This document shows positions 439 through 19,839 of a DNA stretch of 51,747 nt, piece by piece. The notes below the pieces were generated by a model. It was not told the DNA's origin. It ran no database searches and was given only the letters and a program-made list of their open reading frames with translations. The stretch covers positions 1-51,747 of the forward strand of contig JAJTWZ010000029.1 of the NCBI GenBank assembly GCA_021463145.1, read 5' to 3'. Source of the DNA: Blastocatellia bacterium (lineage in GTDB: Bacteria > Acidobacteriota > Blastocatellia > UBA7656 > JADIYM01). A program made the translations under genes and the position numbers. Positions within the stretch are counted from its first letter, which is position 1. Every line of letters begins with the position of its first letter.

Positions 439-505
439 TTTCGCGCCTGTTCGCTTCTTCGACTCGCCGTAGAACAGCACCATTCGAGTGCTGGAGGCCC
501 GCTCC

Positions 506-3340
506 ATGCCGATCGACTTCAATCTGCTCAAGACCCTCGCCGGCCACAGTTACGACGTCAACGCCGTGGCCTTTTCCCGTGACGGGTCACTGCTCGCGTC
601 TGGCGGTGGCGACGGAACTGTCCGCCTCTGGAATGTCGCGGATCCAGGCCCTGCCGGTACTGCAGAACATGGCGAGTGGATCAATTCCGTCTGCTTCGCG
701 CCTTCCGGGCAGCACATCGCCTCGGGTTCGCGCGACGGTTCCGCGAAGCTTTACACCGTCGACACGGGACAGGTTCTGGGCACGATCCAGGCGCACCCGG
801 GAAAGAACGTAAGTACGGTCGTGTTTTCGCCGGATGGCCGGCGGCTCGCCACCGCTGGCGGCGACGGACACGTAAGGATCTTCGATCTGAAGGAGAAGAA
901 GATCGAGCGCGACCTTTCGGCCCACACCGGATGGGTATGGTCCGCATCGTTCTCTTCGCTCGGCGACAGGCTGCTCACGAGCGGATCCGACGGCGCGGCG
1001 CGCGTGTGGTCGGCGGAAACGGGCCAGATGCTCGTTGCATTCGATGGGCACGCGGACGACGTGCTTTCGGCCGCTTTCTCGCCCGACGACCATTTCGCCG
1101 TGACGGCCTGCAAGGACGGCGGCGTTTCGTTCTGGGAAGTCGATTCCGGGAGAATGCTCTTCAGAGTCGTGGCTCACCAGGGCGCCGCAAACTCGGTGAA
1201 CTACGCTCCCGACGGGCTTCACATCGCTACGGCGGGCGCCGACCACCTCATCAACGTCTGGTCCATCGAGACGATGCAGAAGGTCCGCGAGCTCTCGGGC
1301 CACCAGGACTACGTCGCGGCCGCGGTCTTTTCGCGCGACGGTCTGCGGATGGCGTCGTGCGGTGGCGACGGTACCGTGAAGATCTGGGAAGTCACCGACA
1401 AGGCAGCGTATTCGAGTTCGTCGAGCTTCGACCCCGAGCTCGAGATCGAGCACGAAGAAACCAGTCGGCCCGAAGTCGTTTCATCGGTATACGCCGCCGG
1501 GAAAATCGTGGCGGAATCTTCGTTGAAGTCCGGGATCCGGATCGCGCTGCTCGCCTCAGCCCGCGACAAGTTTTCAATAGCGGTTGGAGAGAGCCAACGG
1601 ACGTGCGTGACCATTGCGGGCGACCAGGTGAACGTCATCAGCGGTACTGGAACGGTGCTGCTCAAGTACGATCTGACGCAAAGCACTATCGTCTACGATC
1701 GCACCGACGGCGCCTCGGCGCCCTGGTCGGACGAGGGCGACAGGGAACCCGCGCGGGCGATGGACCCGAACCTCGAGAACTTCGGTGGCGGTGGGTCTGG
1801 AGGCCTCGGGGTGCCGTTCGAACTCGAACGCGCAGCCGGTGGGGGCTACCAGTCGTTCGAACGTCACGGCAGGTCGCTCGCCCGCGAGCGGATGATGAGC
1901 GGACACACACTTCGGCTGGTGCAGTTTGACGCCGACACGGTTTACGTTCTTTTCGATCAGAGCGAGGAACCGACGGTCGTTCTGCGTGGTGAGAACCTCG
2001 ACGTGCGCGACGTGTACGGCAAGGCCGCGTTTCGCATGAACCTGAGGTCGTTCGAGCCTGTCGTCAGCCGGCGGGGTCCGTCCGGACTGGCGGGAGAGGC
2101 TCACGTCATGGGAGACGGCTCGGTGGTGCAGACCGGGTTTGCCGGATCGCCGGAACTCGAACCTCTGACTCCTGCGCGCGATCCGCTGCTCGTGCACGGA
2201 CTCACCGAGATGGCCGGAGAAGAATCGGGCGGCCGCATTCACAAAATCATCGAGAAGGCAGTCTGGCAGAGCGCGTCGGACGTGCACGTGCCGTCGGGCG
2301 CACAGGTGCAGATGCGGCGCCATGGCCAACTTCAACCGCTTGGCGGCCGGACGTATTCGGCCGACGAGATCGAGTCGATGATCCTCGAGATCCTCACTCC
2401 GGAGCAGCGGAAGCGCTTCCTTGAAACCAACGATCTCGACTTCAGCTACGAGATCAAGGGGGTCGGCCGCTTCCGGGCAAACGTATGCCGTCAGCATCGC
2501 GGCGTCGACGCTACGTTTCGCGTGGTTCCGGATTCGATTCCGTCATTCGAGCAGCTAGGGCTGCCGCAGTCGATCCTTCCTCTCACACGACAGCACAACG
2601 GTCTTGTGCTCATCACCGGCCCGGCGGGACAGGGAAAGTCGACGACGATCGCCTGCCTCGTCGATCTCATCAACAGCGAGAAGCCGCACCATATCATCAC
2701 GGTCGAGGATCCGATCGAGTTCGTGCACCCGGTCAAGGTCGCCGTCGTCAACCAACGCGAGGTCGGCCGGCACACGAAGTCGTTCGCAAACGCGTTGCGC
2801 GCGTCGTTGCGCGAGGATCCCGACGTCATCGTGGTTGGCGAAATGCGAGACCTCGAGACCATATCGCTCGCCATTACGGCATCGGAAACGGGCCACCTCG
2901 TTTTCGGAACGCTGATGACGTCGAGCGCGGCACAGACGATCGACCGCGTGCTCGACTCGTTTCCGGCCGGGCAACAGGCTCAGATCCGAACGATGCTCTC
3001 GGAGTCGCTGCGGGGCGTCATCTCGCAGCAGCTCGTGCCGACGACGGACGGTGAGGGACGCGTTCTCGCGTGTGAAGTGTTGCTTGGAACCCCGGCGGTC
3101 GCGAACCTGATCCGTGAGCGAAAGACGTTCCAGCTCATGTCCGTCATGCAGACCAGCCGAAACATTGGAATGCAGCGAATGGACGACGCGCTCTTCGACC
3201 TCTACACGGCCGGCAGGATCGGCCGTGACAATGCGCTGCGTTATTCGCAGGACCAGAAGAACATGGAACTCAGGTTGGCGCCGAAGACAGGTGGCGCCCC
3301 AGGCGGCGAGTTCCCCACGCCGGGGGGCCGGAGGGTGTAG
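506..3340 (+). CDS. WD40 beta-propeller fused to a PilT-family retraction ATPase
   Basis: The protein has 944 residues. ATG 506 is preceded by GGAGG at 492-496; an in-frame GTG at 488 would place that motif inside the gene. Residues about 1-300 hold seven WD40 repeats (GH...DG...LW/IW pattern), enough for one closed propeller. Residues about 300-570 are a linker with a Gly-rich stretch and no fold I recognise. Residues about 570-930 are a full PilT/GspE-type ATPase with its N-terminal PAS-like subdomain, Walker A GPAGQGKST (705-713), Asp box VEDPIEF, Walker B DVIVVGE with catalytic Glu779, and a His box reading GHLVFGTLMT. The second His-box histidine is Met804 here. PilT hexamers power type IV pilus retraction at the inner membrane. 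The propeller is probably a protein-docking platform. A second PilT follows 48 bp downstream and is probably co-transcribed. Confidence 0.9.
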   Translation: MPIDFNLLKTLAGHSYDVNAVAFSRDGSLLASGGGDGTVRLWNVADPGPAGTAEHGEWINSVCFAPSGQHIASGSRDGSAKLYTVDTGQVLGTIQAHPGKNVSTVVFSPDGRRLATAGGDGHVRIFDLKEKKIERDLSAHTGWVWSASFSSLGDRLLTSGSDGAARVWSAETGQMLVAFDGHADDVLSAAFSPDDHFAVTACKDGGVSFWEVDSGRMLFRVVAHQGAANSVNYAPDGLHIATAGADHLINVWSIETMQKVRELSGHQDYVAAAVFSRDGLRMASCGGDGTVKIWEVTDKAAYSSSSSFDPELEIEHEETSRPEVVSSVYAAGKIVAESSLKSGIRIALLASARDKFSIAVGESQRTCVTIAGDQVNVISGTGTVLLKYDLTQSTIVYDRTDGASAPWSDEGDREPARAMDPNLENFGGGGSGGLGVPFELERAAGGGYQSFERHGRSLARERMMSGHTLRLVQFDADTVYVLFDQSEEPTVVLRGENLDVRDVYGKAAFRMNLRSFEPVVSRRGPSGLAGEAHVMGDGSVVQTGFAGSPELEPLTPARDPLLVHGLTEMAGEESGGRIHKIIEKAVWQSASDVHVPSGAQVQMRRHGQLQPLGGRTYSADEIESMILEILTPEQRKRFLETNDLDFSYEIKGVGRFRANVCRQHRGVDATFRVVPDSIPSFEQLGLPQSILPLTRQHNGLVLITGPAGQGKSTTIACLVDLINSEKPHHIITVEDPIEFVHPVKVAVVNQREVGRHTKSFANALRASLREDPDVIVVGEMRDLETISLAITASETGHLVFGTLMTSSAAQTIDRVLDSFPAGQQAQIRTMLSESLRGVISQQLVPTTDGEGRVLACEVLLGTPAVANLIRERKTFQLMSVMQTSRNIGMQRMDDALFDLYTAGRIGRDNALRYSQDQKNMELRLAPKTGGAPGGEFPTPGGRRV

Positions 3341-3388: not shown

Positions 3389-4591
3389 ATGGCCCGAATC
3401 GATTCTCTCTTCAATGAAATGCAGGAACGGGGCGCGTCGGATCTGCACATCGTCGTAGGCCGGCCGCCGATGCTGCGGATGCGTGGCGATCTGGTCGAGA
3501 CGGCTCACGAGCGTGTGACTGCATCGTCGGCCGACGCTCTCATCCGCGAGATATTGACGCCCGCGCAACAGGAGCAGATCGAGGAGCACCTGGACCTCGA
3601 CTTCGCGTACGAACTGCCCGGTCAGGCGAGGTTTCGCGCGAACATCCTCCACCAGCATCGGGGGCTCGGCGCAGTTTTCCGGATCATTCCTACGGACATT
3701 CTGACGCTCGAGCAACTGGGAATGCCGCCGTCGGTCCGGCGACTTGCCGAGATGCCTGCGGGCCTGGTGCTCGTCACGGGGCCGACTGGATCGGGAAAGT
3801 CGACGACCCTTGCCGGCATGATCGACCACATCAACGAGACGCGCGCCGCGCACATCCTCACGATCGAAGATCCTCTCGAGTTCATCCACCAGCCGAAGAA
3901 GTGCCTGATCACACAGCGCGAGGTCGGCGCGCACACCGAGAACTTCGCGAGCGCGCTTCGAGTTGCGGGCAGGCAGGATCCTGACATCATCCTGGTGGGC
4001 GAGATGCGCGATCTGGAGACAATTTCGCTGGCATTGACATCGGCGGCGTGCGGCCTGCTCGTGTTCGGAACGCTCCACACGAACAGCGCTATCAAGACGG
4101 TCGATCGAATCATCGATGCATACCCGCCCGAGGAGCAGAATCAGGTCCGTGCGATGCTCGCCGACTCGTTGAGCGGCGTCGTTGCGCAGCAACTGGTGAA
4201 GACGACCGACGGCAAGCGCTGTGCGGCTGTCGAGATTCTGATCGGTGGGCGCGCACTGGGTAACATCATTCGTGAGGGCAAGACGTCGATGATTCCTTCC
4301 TACATGCAGTCGGGCACGGGCGAAGGAATGCAGACGATGGATCAGGCGCTCATGGCGCTCGTGCAGTCCGGCCGCATCACGGCGGAGGACGCGGCCGTAA
4401 AAGCGACGGACAAGACAGCATTCGAGCGCATGGCGGCCGGCGGGCCGGCGCCGCCGGGCGGAATCCCCCCGATCGGCGGCGTACAACCCGGAGGAATGCC
4501 TCGGCAAGGTCCCCCGCCCGGAGCCGTCCCGCGCCCGCACGGCACTGGCGGCTTCCCGCCGCCGCAGCGGCCGCCCACGGGTCGAAGGTAG
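3389..4591 (+). CDS. PilT-family type IV pilus retraction ATPase
   Basis: The protein has 400 residues and a stand-alone PilT layout: N-terminal subdomain (SDLHIVVGRPP), Walker A GPTGSGKST (131-139), Asp box IEDPLEF, Walker B DIILVGEMRD and GNIIREGKT near the C-terminus. In the His box the usual ETGHLVFGTLHT reads AACGLLVFGTLHT, so the first His is Leu223 and the second, His230, is kept. Arg-Glu of the usual LREDPD is GRQDPD. The last 50 residues are a Pro/Gly-rich tail (PPGG, GGIPPIGG) absent from classical PilT. GTGAGG lies about 10 nt before ATG 3389. It sits directly after the WD40-PilT fusion, and the two are clear paralogues. Which of the two is the main retraction motor cannot be told from sequence. 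Confidence 0.92.
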   Translation: MARIDSLFNEMQERGASDLHIVVGRPPMLRMRGDLVETAHERVTASSADALIREILTPAQQEQIEEHLDLDFAYELPGQARFRANILHQHRGLGAVFRIIPTDILTLEQLGMPPSVRRLAEMPAGLVLVTGPTGSGKSTTLAGMIDHINETRAAHILTIEDPLEFIHQPKKCLITQREVGAHTENFASALRVAGRQDPDIILVGEMRDLETISLALTSAACGLLVFGTLHTNSAIKTVDRIIDAYPPEEQNQVRAMLADSLSGVVAQQLVKTTDGKRCAAVEILIGGRALGNIIREGKTSMIPSYMQSGTGEGMQTMDQALMALVQSGRITAEDAAVKATDKTAFERMAAGGPAPPGGIPPIGGVQPGGMPRQGPPPGAVPRPHGTGGFPPPQRPPTGRR

Positions 4592-9344: not shown

Positions 9345-10463
9345 TCATAACCGCATCGGCATGATGACGTACTTGTAGTCGTAGTCGTCGCTTTTGGATG
9401 GGCGCATCTGGGCCTGGCTCTGCCCATCCTTGAATTCGAAGGCGATCTGCCCTTCACCAGCGACGTTGAGAAAATCGGTCAAATATTGAGCGTTGAAGCC
9501 AATCTGCACGTCCGATCCGTCATAGTCCGTTACGAGCATCTCGCGAGCTTCGCCGACTTCCGAAGACTGCGACATGATCTCGAGCCGCTCCATTCCGAAG
9601 TTCAACTTGATGGCACGTGAACGTTCGTCAGCCATCAACGCGGCGCGACGGATCGCTCCGTGCATTTCGGAGCCTTCCATTCGAACCGAATTCGGCGTTT
9701 CTTTTGGCATCACGAGTTCATAGTTCGGAAACTGACCTGAGAGCATCCTCGAGACGAGCACGCGGCCCCCAATGCGGAAGAAGATGTGGTTCTCGTCGCG
9801 AGCAAACTCGACGACATCGTCAACTTCTGTTGTCAACCGCAGCAATTCCGCCAGAGTCTTTCTCGGGATGAGCACCTTGACTTCATCGCCGTCAATTGGC
9901 GCACCGGTATCCAATCCCGAGCGTTCCACGAACGCCAGCCGATGGCCATCCGTCGCCACCATCCTCGCCGATTCGCCTTCGAGGCGAAAGAAGGCACCGT
10001 TCAACGTATAGCGCGACTCCTCCTGCGTGATCGCGAAAATCGTGCGGTTGATGAGCGTCTTGAGTACTTCGGACGGGATTCGAAACTGGGAAACTGTCCA
10101 GGAAGGAACGACGGGAAAGTGCTCCTTTCCCTGACCTACGACCTTGAACTTCGATCGCGCACAATCGATGACGATCCATTCGTTCGAATCCTGAGTCAAT
10201 CGGATTGGCGCTTCAGGCAGATTACGCACGATGTCGAAGAGTTTGCGAGCGCTGACTACCATCGATCCTTCGGTCTTGACGGAAGCCGGCGCACCGGTTC
10301 GAAGACTGACGTCGAGGTCAGTGCCCAGAATTGCGATTCGACCAGTGCCGTCCGACTCGATTAGCAAATTCGAAAGGATCGGAATCGTATTCTTCTTCTC
10401 GACGACCCCCTGAACGAGATTCAACTCCTTCAAAAGTTCGTTCTTCTCGATCGTGAACTCCAT
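9345..10463 (-). CDS. dnaN: DNA polymerase III beta subunit (sliding clamp)
   Basis: The protein has 372 residues, the normal clamp length. The start is at MEFTIEKNELLKELNLVQG; upstream in-frame codons are spacer DNA. All three clamp domains are present, ending in YVIMPMRL, the typical C-terminus that lines the partner-binding pocket. The clamp encircles DNA and tethers the replicative polymerase. It lies downstream of dnaA on the same strand, the conserved origin order, with 456 bp of DnaA-box-bearing DNA between them. Confidence 0.97.
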   Translation of the reverse strand: MEFTIEKNELLKELNLVQGVVEKKNTIPILSNLLIESDGTGRIAILGTDLDVSLRTGAPASVKTEGSMVVSARKLFDIVRNLPEAPIRLTQDSNEWIVIDCARSKFKVVGQGKEHFPVVPSWTVSQFRIPSEVLKTLINRTIFAITQEESRYTLNGAFFRLEGESARMVATDGHRLAFVERSGLDTGAPIDGDEVKVLIPRKTLAELLRLTTEVDDVVEFARDENHIFFRIGGRVLVSRMLSGQFPNYELVMPKETPNSVRMEGSEMHGAIRRAALMADERSRAIKLNFGMERLEIMSQSSEVGEAREMLVTDYDGSDVQIGFNAQYLTDFLNVAGEGQIAFEFKDGQSQAQMRPSKSDDYDYKYVIMPMRL

Positions 10464-10919
10464 TTGTGGACAACCTCTGGTTTCGAGATTCAACCGCCGA
10501 CTACCTGCGGGCCGCGATGATACACCGACGAATCCAGCTTGCCTACCGATGCTTTCGAAGTCACAGGACGTCAAAGCGCGCCAAGTTCTGCCTCTACAGG
10601 ATTCCTGAATCGAAGCAGTGGTCGGTGTGTCGGCAATAGGGGTTGATGCCGAACCGGTTCTGGCGCTTTTCACTGCTGGTTTTCAAGAGAGAAGACATGG
10701 ATTAAGAACCAGTAGAAGAGATAGGTGCTGTGGGAAAGTTGACCGTCCGCAGTAAGTCATTCATATCAAATACTTTGGATACGATCTTAACCTGTGGAAA
10801 ACCCTGTTGGAATCGACATCTTCTGTAACGACCTTTGTGGAAATCCTGGCAACGCCGGTCGATTTCCACACGATTCACACCCAATCCACAGCCAGTGATT
10901 GTTGAAAACATTCATAAGT
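10464..10919. other. dnaA-dnaN spacer with DnaA-box-like 9-mers
   Basis: No gene. Near-consensus DnaA boxes (TTATCCACA family) are at 10465-10473 (TGTGGACAA), 10793-10801 (TGTGGAAAA), 10836-10844 (TGTGGAAAT), 10862-10870 (ATTTCCACA) and 10882-10890 (CAATCCACA). In many bacteria a second origin sub-region lies in this spacer, or DnaA represses dnaN there. The dnaN promoter should lie here, but I could not fix it. Confidence 0.55.
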
Positions 10920-12401
10920 CTATTTAAGACTTGCAATTAGGCTGTTGATAAGCCTGTGGAAATCTGATTCCCTTTCGTAGAGATCAGTGATCTTGTTTAC
11001 CGAGTGAATGACGGTTGTGTGGTGCTTTCCACCGAATTCACGGCCAATTTCCGGAAGGCTCGCCTTTGTCATGTGCTTACAGAGGTACATTGCGACCTGG
11101 CGAGGAACGGCGACCGAACGCGCGTTGTTCTTGCTTTTCAAGTCGGCTACACGCAGGCCGTAATGATCGGCCACGGCGCGTTGGATGACTTCGATCGTGA
11201 TCGTCTTGTCGTCGTCCTCCATGAAGTTCTTGAGAACCTCCTGAGCCAGATCCATGTCCAGGTCACGGCCGTTCAGCGACGCGTATGCGACCAGGCGCAC
11301 GAGGGAACCCTCGAGTTCACGGATGTTCGATTTGATCTTGGAAGCAATGAACAGGGCGACGTTGTCAGGGAGTTTGATCCGCTCAATTTCGGCTTTGCGC
11401 TTGAGAATGGCGACCTTTGTCTCGAGATCAGGGGGTTGGATGTCGGCGATGAGACCCCACTCGAACCGCGAATGCAGTCGCTCTTCAAGTGTCGGGATCT
11501 CTCGTGGCGGACAGTCCGAACTGATCACGATCTGTTTCTGCGCGTCGTAAAGCGCATTGAACGTATGGAAGAACTCCTCTTGCGTGCGTTCTTTTCCAGC
11601 GAGGAATTGAACGTCGTCCATCAGCAGGATGTCGATTGAGCGGTACTTCTCGCGGAAACTCAGCGTCTTGTCGTAGCGGATCGCGTTGATCAGTTCGTTC
11701 ATGAACTTCTCCGACGAGATGTAACTGAGTTTGAGATGACGGTTGCGACTCTTGATCGCGTGTCCTATCGCATGCATGAGGTGCGTCTTTCCGAGGCCCA
11801 CTCCACCATAAATAAACAATGGGTTGTAGGTCTTGGCCGGTGCTTCGGCGACCGCCAGGCTTGCGGCGTGAGCGAATTGGTTGCAGGAACCGACTACGAA
11901 CGTATCGAACGAATACTTGGTATTGAGCGACAATTCGGCGGGTTCCAGGTCAATCAGTTTGATGGACGGCAATGGTCCGCTCGGCCGCTCCGTCAACGGA
12001 TCCCCGGTTCGCGCGGCCGAGGTCTGCTGAGTGGATACAGCCGCGGATCCCGTCGAATGCGCCACAGTTTGCGCGGTTCCGGCTTCAAGCGGTACCGCCG
12101 GCGAGTACGAGGCCGGTGTTGCACTGCCGTTTCCTGAACCAACCACAGGAGTGCCATCGTCGATCTGAAATGAGATCGAATAGTCCTTGAGGTCAAGTTC
12201 CTCGAGAGACTCCTCCAGGACGTCGGCGTAGTTCGTAGAGATCCAGTGACGGTACGTTTCGTTTGGCACCTGGACCACTAACGTCCTCTCGTCGTCGCGC
12301 GTGAGTGATACCGGCCCGAACCACGTCGCGAAACTGAGTGGATTCACGCGACGCTCGACAGCGTGCAGGATCGATGAGAACAACTGGCTGCTTTCCGTCA
12401 T
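10920..12401 (-). CDS. dnaA: Chromosomal replication initiator DnaA
   Basis: The protein has 493 residues. Domain I ([10 protein letters not shown]) binds helicase or regulators. A Pro/Ala/Ser/Thr-rich domain II linker spans about residues 90-145. Domain III is AAA+, with [10 protein letters not shown], Walker [11 protein letters not shown], Walker B LLMDDVQF and the sensor and Arg-finger region [12 protein letters not shown]. Domain IV carries the DnaA signature ([16 protein letters not shown]) that reads DnaA boxes. Boxes lie on both sides of the gene, and one TGTGGAAAT lies in its 3' end. ATG 12401 is preceded by a weak AGAG. Autoregulation through upstream boxes is likely. Confidence 0.97.
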
Positions 12402-13324
12402 CTCTTATGAGTTCTCTATTCGTTTGTTCTTGATTGGGAGCGGCTCAACTGACCGATTGTCGCAGTCGTTAAGGTAGAGTCTTCACTGTCACCCACTAGA
12501 CAACTCTTCATAAGCAGCGTCGAAGTACTTGCGAAATCTGCCCGTACAGTGTTTTTCCACAGGAAATTCACATATACGAAAACACCCCGACATATACTAC
12601 CTAAACCGTGTCTGCTGAGTGGTTTACCTTGTTGAAAAAGAACCGCGACGACCGGACCGTAGCACAGGAAAACCGCTCTCACAAGCGAAAAACTGAAGGG
12701 CTTTGTGGAAAAAGATAATGCCTGGTTTTTGGGGGCAATTGGAGTGGCAATCAGTCGGCGACACCGCGTGATTTCGGGTTCGATCTGACGGGAGTTGGTC
12801 CGGTGCGGTCGACCCGGGACCGGCAACTCTGAAGCAATCGAGCAACAGGGCGGTGCGCGGTAGCGGTCGCCTACGCCAGCGATACAAGTCGCCGATCTGA
12901 CTGGAGGTCCCGCTCGCTGCGAGGCGTGTGGGAAGGTATAGGGCGAAGAGACATGCGGGACTAAAGCGTCGAAATGGGCCTGAGACACGGATTTCCACAC
13001 GGAATTCGGGCCTTACCAACGTTTTTTCCACAGAAACTGTGGAAAAAACTGGGGAAAAGTGGAAAAGTCGCGCAGATTCGATGGGTTTTCGGTGAGGTCA
13101 GGCCGGGGCGTCGCCGTGTGGGCTCAGATACCTCGAGTGCACGGATTAGAGTTGAAGGTAGAATCCTTATCCAGGCTTTCGGAGGTGAAACGACGATCAT
13201 AGTTTTTCGTCGGTGCCGGCCCACCATCGAGACGTTCTAAATCAAACGAGGCGATTCTGGAAAGCACGGTCCGCCGGCGAGCGAAACTTCTTCGCAATCA
13301 TGATGTTGGCCGTCCGCACATGAC
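12402..13324. other. Probable oriC region between dnaA and rpmH
   Basis: About 0.9 kb with no credible gene. DnaA-box-like 9-mers occur at 12553-12561 (TTTTCCACA), 12704-12712 (TGTGGAAAA), 12991-12999 (ATTTCCACA), 13024-13032 (TTTTCCACA) and 13038-13046 (TGTGGAAAA), followed by GTGGAAAAGT near 13060. An A/T-richer patch with CATATAC and CATATACTAC lies at 12570-12600. Position between divergent dnaA and rpmH is the commonest bacterial oriC location. Exact unwinding element and GC-skew switch were not computed. Confidence 0.65.
13022..13048. repeat. Perfect 12-bp inverted repeat made of two DnaA boxes
   Basis: TTTTTTCCACAG and CTGTGGAAAAAA (13022-13033 and 13037-13048) are separated by 3 nt. 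Head-to-head boxes suggest cooperative DnaA binding. The hairpin could alternatively stop transcription toward dnaA. Confidence 0.75.
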
Positions 13325-13353
13325 TTGACGAGTGAGCTTCCGGCGGGTATGGT
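13325..13353 (+). promoter_or_regulatory. Promoter of the rpmH-rnpA operon
   Basis: TTGACG (13325-13330), 17-nt spacer, TATGGT (13348-13353). The start of transcription would fall near 13360, about 35 nt before rpmH. Confidence 0.65.
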
Positions 13354-13395
13354 CCCTCGTTTGCGACTCTATTCACGTAGCGAGGCGACATAGCA

Positions 13396-13539
13396 ATGAA
13401 GCGCACTTTTCAACCGAACAACCGTCGACGGGCCAAGACGCACGGCTTCAGGCTCCGAATGAGCACGAAGGCCGGTCGCCTTGTGCTCAAGCGCCGCCGC
13501 GACAAGGGCCGGAAGCGTCTGACACCGGCGCACTACTAG
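13396..13539 (+). CDS. rpmH: 50S ribosomal protein L34
   Basis: The protein has 47 residues, a short basic protein starting [18 protein letters not shown] and ending KRLTPAHY. It matches L34 along its whole length (TFQP-N-RR, HGFR-RM-T, GR-VL--RR-KGRK). It is part of the large ribosomal subunit and the first gene of the origin-proximal operon. The gene is too short for usual ORF cut-offs and is hidden inside a longer open frame that belongs to rnpA. GAGGCG lies about 10 nt before ATG. Confidence 0.97.
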
Positions 13540-13553
13540 ACATCGGCACGGGC

Positions 13554-13925
13554 GTGGACGGATCGCGGCCGATCGAGCCGCCGGACGAACGGTTTCCAAA
13601 GTCCGGGAGGATTCTCAAGCGCCCACACTTTCGGCTGATCTACGCTTCCGGCCGGAAGATTCATACGCCGTTGTTTACTGCGTTCTACGTAGAGTCATAC
13701 CGGCCGGGACTTCGAATCGGCCTTACGGTCACTCGCAAGGTCGGTTCGTCGGTTGAACGCAATAGGTGCCGAAGGCTTTTGCGAGAGGCTTTTCGCCGAA
13801 ACAAGGCTCTCGGTCTCGGACTTGGAGTGGACCTCGTGATCAACGCGAAGCGCGATCTGGTTGCAGCGCCGTATGCCGGGGTCGAGGCAGAAGTGAAGCG
13901 CTTGCTCGCAAGGATTCGGTCGTGA
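13554..13925 (+). CDS. rnpA: Ribonuclease P protein component
   Basis: The protein has 123 residues from GTG 13554, 14 nt after the rpmH stop. Conserved parts are [14 protein letters not shown] at the N-terminus and the RNR-type motif [15 protein letters not shown], with a basic helix that binds the 5' leader and P RNA. It matures tRNA 5' ends with the RNA subunit. The same frame stays open upstream through all of rpmH to 13332, but has no start codon between there and 13554. The stop overlaps the yidD start by 4 nt (GTGA). Confidence 0.92.
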
Positions 13926-14131
13926 GAGGTCTCGCTAGTGGCGTGATCCGCGTCTACCAGCGCTGGGTATCGCCGATATTACCCAAGGCTTGCCGTTTCG
14001 AGCCGACGTGCTCGGAATACACACGGCAGGCGATCGTTCGCTACGGCGTCGCGCGCGGCGCCTTTCTCGGTTTCTGCCGGTTGATGAAATGCCATCCATT
14101 TCATCCGGGTGGTTACGATCCGGTTCGATAA
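13922..14131 (+). CDS. yidD: Membrane protein insertion efficiency factor YidD
   Basis: The protein has 69 residues. It starts at GTG 13922 overlapping the rnpA stop. It carries the family core [25 protein letters not shown] and the C-terminal [12 protein letters not shown], with the conserved cysteines. Family members assist YidC-dependent membrane insertion. Here it sits between rnpA and yidC, the standard order. Confidence 0.95.
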
Positions 14132-14158
14132 CGTCTAGCAGGACACAAGAAGCAGTTC

Positions 14159-16027
14159 ATGGAAAAGCGACTTCTCGCGGCGATACTTCTCTCGATGGGC
14201 ATCCTCTTCGGCTGGCAGTACTTCATGCGGACTTTCTACCCGCAGAAGCCTCCAGCGCCTCCCGCGACGCAGACGGCCGTGCCGTCTCCGGAGCCTGCGC
14301 CTGTTACTGCCCCAGTTGTATCGACCACGGGTTCGAGCACGGCCCCAGTAGATCCGGCCGCTGCTGCAGGCGTTGCTGCGGTAGCTGAACCGGAACGCAC
14401 CGTAACCGTGCAGACAACGCACTGGACGGCCAGGTTCACCAACCGTGGAGCGGTCCCGGTGTCCTGGGTACTAACTGCCGGTCCGGACGACAAGCCGATT
14501 CAGTCGTCGGACGGCACGGCGCTCGAATTGATACCTGAGGTAGGCGTCCGCGAAGTTGGTGCACCGCTGCGGCTCGGCGTTCCAGGTGACGATGCGGCGA
14601 CCGCGCGGTTCAACTCCTCGACGTATCGCGTCGAGTTGAAAGACGGGAACGGCGCGGTCGTTCAACTCCCGGCCGATGAACCGATCGTCGTAGCGGACGA
14701 CCAGACGATAGAACTTGCGTTCACGCTCGTCGATGCGGCGACGCACCAGACCCTGACGAAGCGATTCACTATCGTCGGCGGCCTGTTCGACCTGGGCCTC
14801 GTCGTCGAGGGGTCACCAGTGCCGCCATCGATGGCGGTCGTCGTGGGGCCACGCATAGGCGACCAGACGATTCGCACGGAAGGCACATATGCCTATTCAC
14901 CTCCCCTCGCTGCGATCGGTGGCGAGGACGGCAAGGCGAAGTACGTGCACGGGGGAGAAGTCGCCAGCGGCGGTAACCACACCGTCGAGTCCGTACCGCA
15001 CTGGGCAGGGATAACCGACAACTACTTCGCAATGGCGGTCGCGGCGACGAACGAATCCCGGTCTCCATCGGTCGTGTCGAACGTGAAGCTCAAATACGAC
15101 GAGAAGGACACGAAGGAACACGACTTCCTCTCGGTTTCGATTCCGGTGTCGAACGGCAAGTTGATGCGCGTGTTCGTGGGGCCAAAGGATCCGCACGTCT
15201 TCGACGCGGTGAACGCCCGCGCCAAGACGGAACTGGGAGCGGCGATCGACCTTTCGGGCTTGATCAACTACGGATGGTTCGGCTTTCTCGTTCGCCCGAT
15301 AATTCCCATCATCGACTGGGCTCTTCAGTTGACGAACCGGCTGACGGGCAATTACGGATGGTCGATTATCGTCGTGACTGCGATCTTCAACCTGTTGTTC
15401 TTCCCCCTCCGATACAAGAGTTCGGTCTCGATGAAGAGGGCGGCGAAGTTGCAGCCGCGCATGAAGGACCTGCAGGAGCGGATGAAGAAGGTGAAGCCGA
15501 CGGATCCGGCTTTCAAAGAGTTGCAGTCGGAGCAGTTCGCTCTGATGAAGGAAGGAAATCCGCTGGGCGGATGCCTGCCGCTGCTTCTGCAGTTCCCGTT
15601 CTTCTGGGCCTTCTTCGTGTACTTCACGACCTCGTTTGTAGTGCGGAAGCAGCCGTGGGTCGGTTGGGTGCACGATCTTACTGCGCCGGACCCTCACTAC
15701 GTTCTGCCGGTTCTAATGTGTGCCGCTCAGATCGGATCGATGCTCGTGATGCCGATGCCAAACTCCGACGATCCAGTGATGAAGATGCAGCGCCGTCTCA
15801 TGACGTGGGTGATGCCGATCGTCTTCACATACTTCTTCTTTGTGGCTGCGCCAAGCGGACTCATGCTCTACTGGATGACGCTGAACCTCGCGGGTATCGG
15901 GATCCAGTTCGCAATCAACAAGATGATGCCGCCCGATCTGAAAGACGTGCCAGTGCCGGTTCCCGCGGCCTCGGGCAAGAAATCGAAGAAGGGCGGTAGC
16001 CGGGAACTTGTAGGAAGCGAGAAGTAG
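14159..16027 (+). CDS. yidC: Membrane protein insertase YidC
   Basis: The protein has 622 residues. The N-terminal membrane anchor (LLAAILLSMGILFGWQYF) is followed by an Ala/Pro/Thr-rich linker and a large periplasmic beta-sandwich up to about residue 360. This long periplasmic domain is the Gram-negative form. The conserved insertase core follows: amphipathic region, NYGWSIIVVTAIFNLLFFPL, MKRAAKLQPRMKDLQ cytoplasmic hairpin, GNPLGGCLPLLLQFPFFWAFF, and two more membrane segments. A basic C-terminal tail (KKSKKGG) may contact ribosomes. It inserts proteins with or without SecYEG. It is 27 nt after yidD and 2 nt before jag. Confidence 0.97.
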   Translation: MEKRLLAAILLSMGILFGWQYFMRTFYPQKPPAPPATQTAVPSPEPAPVTAPVVSTTGSSTAPVDPAAAAGVAAVAEPERTVTVQTTHWTARFTNRGAVPVSWVLTAGPDDKPIQSSDGTALELIPEVGVREVGAPLRLGVPGDDAATARFNSSTYRVELKDGNGAVVQLPADEPIVVADDQTIELAFTLVDAATHQTLTKRFTIVGGLFDLGLVVEGSPVPPSMAVVVGPRIGDQTIRTEGTYAYSPPLAAIGGEDGKAKYVHGGEVASGGNHTVESVPHWAGITDNYFAMAVAATNESRSPSVVSNVKLKYDEKDTKEHDFLSVSIPVSNGKLMRVFVGPKDPHVFDAVNARAKTELGAAIDLSGLINYGWFGFLVRPIIPIIDWALQLTNRLTGNYGWSIIVVTAIFNLLFFPLRYKSSVSMKRAAKLQPRMKDLQERMKKVKPTDPAFKELQSEQFALMKEGNPLGGCLPLLLQFPFFWAFFVYFTTSFVVRKQPWVGWVHDLTAPDPHYVLPVLMCAAQIGSMLVMPMPNSDDPVMKMQRRLMTWVMPIVFTYFFFVAAPSGLMLYWMTLNLAGIGIQFAINKMMPPDLKDVPVPVPAASGKKSKKGGSRELVGSEK

Positions 16028-16029
16028 CA

Positions 16030-16476
16030 ATGAGGGACGAGATTCAGGCGTTCGTCGACAAGATGACTGCGGCGGCAGGCTTCGAGGTCTCAATCGTCGT
16101 CGAAGAGACCGGCGTGGCGGGTGACTATCGCGTCGTACTCTCGGGCACCGATCGCGGAATGTTGCTCAGCCGGGGCGCTGAACTGCTCGACGCACTCGAG
16201 TACGTCACGAATCGCGCATTCGGCAAGCAAATGAAACACGACGGGAAGATTATTTTCGACAGCAACAACTATCGTCGGATGCGGGAGCAGGAGTTGCACC
16301 TCATGGCGCGGAAAGCCGCGGAACGCGTTCGTGAAACGCGTCAGCCATTTGTCTTCGAGGCCATGTCGCCAAGCGAGCGTCGCATCATCCACGTAGCACT
16401 GACAGATGACGCGACCGTCCGCACGGAGTCGATAGGGGACGGTTCCGAGCGCAAGATTCGCGTTGTGAGAGCTTGA
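16030..16476 (+). CDS. jag: Jag/KhpB-like KH-R3H RNA-binding protein
   Basis: The protein has 148 residues. A KH domain (about 20-75, with GTDRGMLLSRGAELLDALEYV) and an R3H domain (about 85-145, RKAAERVRETRQP...MSPSERRIIH) are present, but the N-terminal Jag_N domain of Bacillus and Streptococcus Jag is missing. The arrangement directly after yidC is conserved across bacteria. Gram-positive relatives bind RNA and influence cell elongation. The role here is inferred from neighbourhood only. Confidence 0.9.
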   Translation: MRDEIQAFVDKMTAAAGFEVSIVVEETGVAGDYRVVLSGTDRGMLLSRGAELLDALEYVTNRAFGKQMKHDGKIIFDSNNYRRMREQELHLMARKAAERVRETRQPFVFEAMSPSERRIIHVALTDDATVRTESIGDGSERKIRVVRA

Positions 16477-16522
16477 TCGGTTCTAGGTGTGGGGGATTGT
16501 CCCTTCGCCTGGGCAGCGAGAA

Positions 16523-17899
16523 ATGTTCGAGGACACGATCGTCGCAGTCGCGACGCCTCCCGGACGCGGCGGCATTGCCATCGTTCGAATGAGCGGGCCA
16601 GATGCCCTGCGGATCGCAAACGTATGTCTGGGGGGAGGAGACCGGCTTGCGGCCTCGCCGCGGCGGGCGATCCTCGTCGACGTGTCCGACCCGGCACACG
16701 AATGTCCCGCGATCGATCGTGGCCTGGCCACCTTGTTCCGCGCCCCGGCCTCGTACACCGGGGAAGACGTTGTCGAGATTTCAGTCCACGGTTCGCCGGT
16801 GATAGTGGACACCACACTGCGCGCACTGCTGGCGGCGGGAGCGCGTGTGGCAACTCCGGGAGAGTTCACGCTGCGCGCTTTTCTGAACGGTCGTATCGAC
16901 CTTACGCAGGCCGAGGCCGTTCGAGATATCGTCGAAGCTCAGACTGGCCACCAGGCGCGTCACGCACAGCGGCAGTTGCGGGGAGAGCTGTCGAACCGGC
17001 TTCGGCCGCTCAGGGACAGGCTGCTCGCGGTGATCGTACAACTCGAGTCCACGGTCGAGTTCGTCGAGGATGACATTGCACCTGAGGAACGATCGACTCT
17101 TTCGGCTGAACTCGAGTCGGCCGCCAACGAGTTGTCGGCTCTGACGTCGACGTACGCTGTTGGCCGCCTGATTGCGGACGGACTTGGCGTCACGCTCGCC
17201 GGCCGGCCGAACGCCGGGAAGTCGAGCCTGTTCAACAGACTCGTTCGGTCGGAGCGGGCGATCGTGACGCCGACCCCGGGCACCACGCGCGACCTCGTCA
17301 GCGAATCCATAGAAATTGATGGCGTTCCAATTCGGCTCGTCGACACGGCGGGATTGCGCGAGACGGATGACGAGATAGAGAGGATCGGCGTTGGACGAAC
17401 GCGCAGTTCCATCGCAGACGCCGACGTCGTGATAGTTGTCATAGATGGACAGGCGGATTCCGCGGATACGTTGGGCCCGCTTCTCGATGAAAGTCGTGAC
17501 TCCAGGCGCGTGGTGGTGGTCAACAAGACCGATCTTGGATCGCCAGCGGCGGGTATAGTGGAGCAAATTCGTGCTGCAGGTGTGGATCCGATCCTCGTGT
17601 CAGCTCTTTCGGGTGATGGCCTTGAGGACGTCCGCGGCGCTATTCTGAGCGCTGTCGGCGGTCTGCCGGTCGTGGAAACGGACAGCTTGCTCGTGACGAA
17701 CGCGCGACACCACGAACTACTCCGACGAGCGTCAGCGGCATTGTCGTCGGCGTCGGAAGCGTTGTCGGCCGGGTTTTCCGAGGAGATCGCTCTGGCTGGC
17801 CTTCACGAGGCGCTTCAGACGCTTGGGGAATTGACCGGCGAAACCGTCATCGACGACGTGCTCGGCATGATCTTCTCGACATTCTGCATCGGCAAGTAG
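16523..17899 (+). CDS. mnmE: tRNA-U34 modification GTPase MnmE
   Basis: The protein has 458 residues from ATG 16523; a GTG 36 nt upstream is possible but less typical. The N-terminal formyl-THF-binding domain starts DTIVAVATPPGRGGIAIVR. An inserted Ras-like GTPase domain has GRPNAGKSSLFN, DTAGLRETDDEIERIG and NKTD. The C-terminus is CIGK, the cysteine-containing motif of the family. With MnmG it builds the cmnm5 group on wobble uridine 34 of certain tRNAs. Its partner mnmG is 14 nt downstream, so the pair is co-transcribed. Confidence 0.97.
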   Translation: MFEDTIVAVATPPGRGGIAIVRMSGPDALRIANVCLGGGDRLAASPRRAILVDVSDPAHECPAIDRGLATLFRAPASYTGEDVVEISVHGSPVIVDTTLRALLAAGARVATPGEFTLRAFLNGRIDLTQAEAVRDIVEAQTGHQARHAQRQLRGELSNRLRPLRDRLLAVIVQLESTVEFVEDDIAPEERSTLSAELESAANELSALTSTYAVGRLIADGLGVTLAGRPNAGKSSLFNRLVRSERAIVTPTPGTTRDLVSESIEIDGVPIRLVDTAGLRETDDEIERIGVGRTRSSIADADVVIVVIDGQADSADTLGPLLDESRDSRRVVVVNKTDLGSPAAGIVEQIRAAGVDPILVSALSGDGLEDVRGAILSAVGGLPVVETDSLLVTNARHHELLRRASAALSSASEALSAGFSEEIALAGLHEALQTLGELTGETVIDDVLGMIFSTFCIGK

Positions 17900-17913
17900 G
17901 GAGAGACTGAACT

Positions 17914-19839
17914 ATGGTGAGTGGAATGGGCACCCCGAGTTCAGCGGGCGATCGTCGTTATGACGAGCAATATGACGTGCTCGTGATTGGCGCTGGCCAC
18001 GCAGGTTGCGAGGCTGCGCACGCTGCGGCGCGCCTTGGCGCTAAGACTGCACTCGTTACCATCAATCTGGACCTGATTGGCCAGATGTCGTGCAATCCGG
18101 CAATCGGTGGAGTGGCCAAGGGTCACATGGTTCGCGAGATTGACGCACTCGGCGGGGCGATGGGTGTAATCGCGGACAGAACGGGCATTCAGTTTCGACT
18201 TCTCAACCGAAGCCGGGGGCCAGCTGTGCAGTCCCCGCGATGCCAATCCGATCGGGCTCTTTACCGGACGGAGATGCGATCATTTCTCGAGAAGACGCCG
18301 GATCTTCACCTGCAGCAGGCGGAAGTTGTCGAACTGCTTATCGAGAACGGCCGAATAGTTGGCGTTGAACTCATCGACTCGAGACGGTTCGCAGCGCGGA
18401 CCGTAGTCCTGACGACCGGGACCTTTCTGAATGGCCTGGTTCACATAGGCGATCACACGTATTCAGCCGGGCGATCGGGAGAGGCACCCGCAATCCGGCT
18501 TGCCGCGTCGGTTCGACGGATAGGCTTCAGAATGGGACGGCTCAAGACCGGAACGCCGCCCAGGCTCGACTCTCGCACTATCGACTTCTCCCAGATGGAA
18601 AGGCAATTTGGCGACACGCCGCCGGTGCCCTTCTCGTTCCGTACTACCTCGATCGATCAACCCCAGCTCCATTGCCACATTGCATTTACGAATCAACAAG
18701 TTCACGACTCAATCCGCGGAAATCTGGAGAGGTCGCCCCTGTATTCGGGAAAGATCGAAGGCACTGGCCCCCGGTATTGTCCGTCGATAGAGGACAAAGT
18801 CGTCAAGTTCCCGCATAAGGACAGGCACCAACTGTTTCTAGAGCCCGAGGGTTACGATACTTACGAGACGTATATAAACGGGCTCTCGACGTCGCTGCCG
18901 GTAGACGCACAGCAAGAAATGCTCGTGCGGATCCGGGGACTCGAGAACGTGAAAATGCTGCGACCTGGCTACGCGATCGAGTATGACTTTGTCGATCCTA
19001 CCGAGCTCCGGCATACGCTCGAGACAAAGCGTGTCGCTGGGCTTTTTCACGCGGGCCAGATCAACGGAACGTCTGGTTATGAAGAGGCCGCTGGTCAGGG
19101 GATCGTTGCGGGAATTAACGCCGCTCTCCAGGCGCTGGGCCACGAACCGTGGGTCTTCAATAGGAGCGATGGCTACGTGGGGGTCATGATAGACGACCTG
19201 GTCAGTCGCGGCGCGGACGAGCCATACAGGATGTTTACGTCGCGCTCGGAGTCGAGGCTCTTGTTGCGGATGGACACGGCAGACCGGCGGTTGACGGAGT
19301 CCGGCCGCCAACTCGGACTCGTACAAGACGACCATTGGGATATGTTCAATGCGAAGACGCGCAGGCTGGAGTCGGTCGTTGGAGCCATCGACGGTCTGCG
19401 TGTTGCTATGTCGTCCTCAACCGCGACCAGCCTTGGAGAAGCGGGACTGGATGTTGCATCTACGACAACTGTTGCTGCACTTATGAAGCGGCCGGAGTTC
19501 CACGTGGAGCATTTGCGAATGCTGCTTCCTGCTGCCATTTCTGAAAGTGTTTCCGACGAGGAATTGGGGGTAGTCCTGAGCGACGTCAAGTACTCAGGTT
19601 ATGTTGCCAATCAGGTGGCGGCCTCTGCGAGGGTACAGGCGTCTCGCGCGCGGCGTATTCCGGCAGACTTCGATTTTTCGTCCGTGTCGGGCCTGTCGAC
19701 GGAGCAAATCGAGAAACTTTCTCGCCGTCGGCCGGAAACGCTCTACGAGGCCGAAGGTGTATCAGGGATGACGCCAGCGGCTGTGAACCTATTGTCGGTA
19801 TACCTCGAGCTTGGCAAGCGACGGGCCGCCCGTGTCTGA
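17914..19839 (+). CDS. mnmG: tRNA-U34 carboxymethylaminomethyl transferase MnmG (GidA)
   Basis: The protein has 641 residues, normal length. The FAD-binding motif [12 protein letters not shown] is near residue 25. [23 protein letters not shown] and [21 protein letters not shown] carry the GidA signatures, and the C-terminal helical domain binds MnmE and tRNA. GGGAGAG precedes ATG 17914. A parS-like palindrome with one mismatch lies inside the gene at 19497-19510. It overlaps rsmG. Confidence 0.97.

Follow-up and report, generated by a model that had tools for sequence, protein, structure and literature searches.

A WD40–PilT fusion in a Blastocatellia bacterium belongs to a tandem pair of PilT-type ATPases with complementary His-box histidine losses

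Is an open frame that joins a WD40 propeller to a PilT-type ATPase a genuine fusion gene, and if so, what kind of motor would its product belong to? We examined this question in a 51,747-nucleotide stretch of DNA from a Blastocatellia bacterium (hereafter the window), in which the fusion gene (506-3340) is the first member of a pair and a second PilT-type gene (3389-4591) the second. We refer to these two genes and their proteins as A and B, respectively, and use the same letters for the first and second members of related pairs; the features of both are collected in Table 1.

Table 1. Positions of the two genes of the pair and of their domains and motifs in the window
Feature	Coordinates	Strand	Basis
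A, WD40-linker-PilT fusion gene, 944 aa	506..3340	+	open frame, ATG 506, GGAGG 493-497
Seven-bladed WD40 propeller, residues 1-300 of A	506..1405	+	PF00400, predicted structure, 5yzv match
Linker, residues 301-576 of A (276 aa), no known family	1406..2233	+	Pfam, model, composition
PilT-family ATPase domain, residues 577-921 of A	2234..3268	+	TIGR01420 446.6 bits; pLDDT >90
Variant Walker A of A, GPAGQGKST (canonical GPTGSGKST)	2618..2644	+	sequence alignment
Walker B and catalytic Glu779 of A, VIVVGEMRD, conserved	2825..2851	+	sequence alignment
His box of A, GHLVFGTLMTSSA: His797 kept, Met804 for His229 (codon 2915-2917)	2891..2929	+	alignment with 3jvu
B, PilT-family ATPase, 400 aa, canonical Walker A	3389..4591	+	TIGR01420 455.2 bits
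His box of B, GLLVFGTLHTNSA: first His lost (Leu223, 4055-4057), second His kept (4076-4078)		+	alignment with 3jvu

The frame of A is open without interruption from 473 to 3337 and closes with a stop codon at 3338-3340. Its likely start is the ATG at 506, with a GGAGG sequence eight bases upstream, and a GTG at 488 offers an alternative. G+C content at the three codon positions is 0.64/0.50/0.79 in the propeller, 0.67/0.49/0.75 in the linker and 0.64/0.43/0.80 in the PilT part, and because this composition changes little across the linker, a frameshift, a missed stop or a non-coding stretch is unlikely; the window contains no N letters. The initial annotation had placed WD40 repeats, a linker and a PilT ATPase in a single frame and had named a frameshift or missed stop within the linker as one finding that would overturn this reading; we find one open frame of 944 codons and, from codon-position G+C, no sign of either defect, which confirms that the WD40–PilT fusion is real.

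The seven WD40 repeats that had been noted from the sequence alone are borne out both by the Pfam model PF00400, which matches seven stretches of A (205 bits, against a cut-off of 27), and by structure prediction. Given an alignment of seven WD40 homologue sequences, AlphaFold models residues 2-300 with pLDDT mostly above 90 as a closed seven-bladed fold, whose top match in the PDB is the WD40 domain of PkwA (5yzv; TM 0.97 on the target), such that A qualifies as a WD40 repeat protein with seven repeats in a closed propeller. PkwA resembles A in joining a bacterial seven-bladed WD40 propeller to an enzyme, but its enzyme is a Ser/Thr kinase, and the two WD40 domains are 32% identical. The nearest relative of the propeller within the same genome is also only 32% identical to it, which argues against a recent local copy. 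The linker, described beforehand as some 270 residues of unknown fold, fits that description at 276 residues: nothing in Pfam matches it even at E 10, and its AlphaFold model is of low confidence, with two short, weak beta-rich patches (residues about 333-398 and 459-512). No relatives of it were found in the 7 other genomes of the order, and a search for internal repeats yielded none.

The TIGR01420 model places the C-terminal part of A (residues 578-918) in the PilT family at a score well above its cut-off of 319.1 bits, which B exceeds as well, whereas extension-ATPase profiles reject A (PilB, 123.5 bits against a cut-off of 675.65; GspE, 127 against 630.25) and score B similarly low. About half of the residues in the ATPase part of A are identical to those of Pseudomonas aeruginosa PilT (3jvu/3jvv), and the same motifs are present; A differs in its 576-residue N-terminal extension, in a Gln that replaces the usual Ser of Walker A, and in Met804 at the position of His229. 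Using the alignment with Pseudomonas PilT (3jvu), we designate the equivalents of His222 and His229 as His1 and His2, of which A retains His1 only and B retains His2 only, while control proteins keep both. The counterpart of His229 in PilB touches the gamma-phosphate (PMC5424180). The Walker A lysine, the Asp-box Glu, the catalytic Glu and the arginine-finger positions are all present in both A and B, and B retains the residues known to be needed for ATP binding and splitting, with the exception of the first His-box histidine. The PilT ATPase of A had been called complete, which holds for its length but not for its catalytic residues, given a methionine at the gamma-phosphate histidine and the variant Walker A. 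Similarly, the label of PilT motor is correct as to family but not as to a standard lone motor: B follows directly on the same strand after a gap of 48 bp, A, altered in its catalytic residues, forms the first half of a tandem pair, and the genome has a canonical pilB-pilT-pilC locus elsewhere.

This complementary pattern extends well beyond the window. Across 245 distinct PilT-type domains, His1 is missing from all 37 B members (a count that taken alone is partly circular, as the B seeds were initially chosen by motif) and from none of the 208 others, while His2 is missing from 15 of the 36 A members and from none of the remaining 209. Less circular evidence comes from these all-domain counts, from a tree computed without the motif columns, in which A falls on one side at 0.97 and B forms no clean clade (low support), and from a later Planctomycetota set, in which 19 further His1-less domains grouped with B. 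Mapped onto the tree, His1 loss amounts to one change and His2 loss to five. The usual Walker A serine is likewise absent from 28 of 36 A members, and the catalytic Glu is replaced by Asp in three; together with the changes at His2, these substitutions indicate that A has been drifting catalytically while B has been held constant. A members are not uniformly degenerate, since His2 is retained by those of Planctomycetota and by all but three of those with a short extension or none.

In a maximum-likelihood tree of 113 PilT-type domains, the 37 second members fall on one side of a branch (support 93) and the 36 first members on one side of another (60), and the addition of 30 Planctomycetota members changes these supports to 86 (B) and 80 (A); all are SH-aLRT values from a quick search, and hence moderate. 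The PilT and PilU rows lie apart from both groups, with neither A nor B clustering with PilU or with the PilT of PilT-PilU pairs. Distance matrices of A and B correlate (r 0.86, 35 pairs, permutation p 0.0001). The A/B pair is ancient and distinct from PilT/PilU, and probably stems from a tandem duplication of its own. The PilT-PilU pairs of Pseudomonas, Vibrio and Neisseria are also tandem PilT-type ATPase genes of the same domain family, where one member may need its partner, but in addition to forming separate groups in the trees they retain both His-box histidines (24/24 here) and carry no N-terminal scaffold domains.

A/B pairs are present in Acidobacteriota, Planctomycetota (locus L024 and eleven more), Thermodesulfobacteriota (L014, L019) and CSSED10-310 (L020). 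Within Acidobacteriota, a profile search detected a B-type gene in about 29 of 396 sampled genomes, the first members being read from the loci. Some Planctomycetota (L263, L265, L267, L268) carry a B-type gene, with the His box GNLVFGTLHTNSA, and no PilT-type gene upstream, and in one acidobacteriotal genome (G077) A and B are on different contigs, such that B may work alone in these four loci and in this genome. Other arrangements in Planctomycetota include two consecutive A-type genes followed by one B-type gene (L277, 1381-5432, minus strand) and very degenerate PilT-type open reading frames (L253 and L254, with His boxes YLVLSTYQSSSI and YLVLATFQASNI) beside a PilT that keeps His1.

First members also differ in what precedes their ATPase. 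A domain scan of 35 of them found HEAT repeats in 15 (E down to 3e-41) and WD40 repeats only in the A of the window. The HEAT-PilT proteins of other Acidobacteriota (e.g., L162, L170, L173) share with this A the position in the tandem pair, the side of the tree and a bulky N-terminal protein-binding scaffold, but their scaffold is a HEAT solenoid rather than a WD40 propeller, and their His2 is either retained or has given way to Ser, Asn or Asp, compared with Met in A. The nearest relatives of A (G029, G033, G418) are free of WD40 and begin with roughly 100 residues that lead into a proline/glutamine-rich stretch, the first members of Planctomycetota carry a short region, probably helical, and a low-complexity arm, and those of Thermodesulfobacteriota have no N-terminal extension; the tree requires three changes to account for the HEAT, WD40 and G029-type N-termini. 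A-type genes of this group occur in 4 of 162 genomes of the class, WD40 in 1 of them, and no second WD40–PilT fusion was found in these 162 genomes or in the other first members, from two phyla. The literature searched likewise gave nothing on point for a WD40- or HEAT-fused PilT, in keeping with the initial statement that no pilus-retraction ATPase with a fused propeller is known. A 745-residue open frame in the same genome (C143), considered as a further fusion, was rejected, as its likely start is internal and it has no extra domain. Taken alone, the WD40 fusion is a variant seen in one genome; the interesting finding, in our view, is the pairing of tandem genes whose histidine losses are complementary and whose scaffolds differ by lineage, of which we found no description in the literature searched.

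The check for pilus genes elsewhere in the genome that the initial annotation had called for revealed a canonical pilB-pilT-pilC locus on another contig (C35), together with a response regulator and pilin-type genes, and the A/B pair is therefore additional to the main pilus set; other PilT-type genes exist in this genome as well. Within the window, the pair sits between a tRNA-Leu gene and ordinary genes, with dnaN about 5 kb and dnaA about 6 kb away, and no pilus genes near it. The dnaN, dnaA, yidC, mnmE and mnmG genes (9345-19839) probably mark the neighbourhood of a replication origin, and a 136-nt direct repeat (1-136 and 167-302, 98% identical, rich in inverted repeats) lies just upstream of the tRNA-Leu gene (355-438). 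We found no gene neighbourhood conserved across all A/B pairs. In five HEAT-lineage genomes (L163, L167, L168, L218, L156) a sensor kinase adjoins the pair, and several of these pairs have divergent prepilin-like genes alongside, whose products weakly match models for pseudopilin, ComG and the 'Verru_Chthon cassette'; such neighbours support a pilus-like role.

What might such a pair do? We consider the chances about even that A and B together make up a single motor of the retraction type for a type IV pilus, with A the coupling or regulatory subunit and B the powering one. B would split ATP and be the most likely power source, while A would bind ATP and, with its catalytic glutamate kept but its gamma-phosphate histidine lost, probably hydrolyze it poorly, acting as a coupling or regulatory subunit in the way that inactive PilT does for PilU. 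PilU pulls only via PilT, for which a catalytically dead PilT suffices (PMC6762196), and Pseudomonas PilT H229A together with PilU allows slight motility when the pilin background is permissive (PMC12607626). Arguing against a joint motor are the evidence of Adams et al. against PilT-PilU heterohexamers (PMC6762196), the B genes that occur without A, the non-uniform loss of His2, the lack of pilus genes near the pair in the window and the other PilT-type genes in the genome.

As to the propeller, it may, on its probably flexible 276-residue arm, bring a partner from the cytoplasm to the base of the pilus, or alternatively keep the motor near such a partner, with the HEAT solenoid occupying its place in other lineages. 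A tether to a signalling or cell-surface partner had been suggested; binding a partner is what a WD40 domain most naturally suggests, and this agrees with HEAT modules at the same place in relatives, but a partner at the cell surface is unlikely, since PilT-type ATPases are cytoplasmic. The suggested ring of six propellers presupposes a homohexamer, which the A/B pairing makes doubtful.

Three other explanations were weighed against the two-subunit motor. A could be an ordinary active retraction ATPase that carries an accessory propeller and tolerates Met for His, with B a second, independent motor, as the intact Walker A lysine, Asp-box Glu, catalytic Glu and arginine-finger positions and a TIGR01420 score well over the cut-off would allow. 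We nonetheless find this improbable, given that Pseudomonas PilT requires the lost histidine, His229, for twitching (PMC6858323), that none of the 209 other PilT-type domains lacks His2, and that it was lost repeatedly and independently in A alone, which points to relaxed or altered catalysis. Similarly low is the likelihood we assign to a pilus-related machine other than twitching (pseudopilus secretion, DNA uptake or a Verrucomicrobia-style pilin cassette) that the pair would drive and whose cargo or regulator the scaffold would recruit: the family score is that of PilT/PilU and not of GspE or PilB, and such genes are absent near the pair in the window, although the model matches of the HEAT-lineage prepilin-like neighbours and the pilT already present in the pilB-pilC locus fit this explanation. 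Least probable by far is an assembly chimaera, or else a recent, functionless dead-end fusion, as the origin of the WD40 part. Its occurrence in a single genome and a linker without relatives in the order would be in line with such an origin, but the 944-codon frame, the uniform codon-position composition, the ribosome-binding site and the closed fold in the model all speak against it, as does the presence of long modules at the corresponding N-terminal position in the closest first members.

A stronger form of the two-subunit motor, which we put forward tentatively and rate as distinctly less probable than the motor itself, makes both proteins obligate components of the retraction motor: the roles of the His box would be divided between them, and the degenerate partner would serve as a socket for WD40, HEAT or other scaffolds that, lineage by lineage, link pilus retraction to different partners in the cell. 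The pair bears on how PilU, or any second retraction ATPase, is coupled to PilT: a diverged pair in which one histidine is always missing from one partner and the second histidine sometimes from the other offers a natural dissection of the role of each histidine and of whether motors can be mixed. Interchangeable scaffolds point to a route by which pilus retraction may be tied to other cell functions, in phyla whose pilus biology has been little studied.
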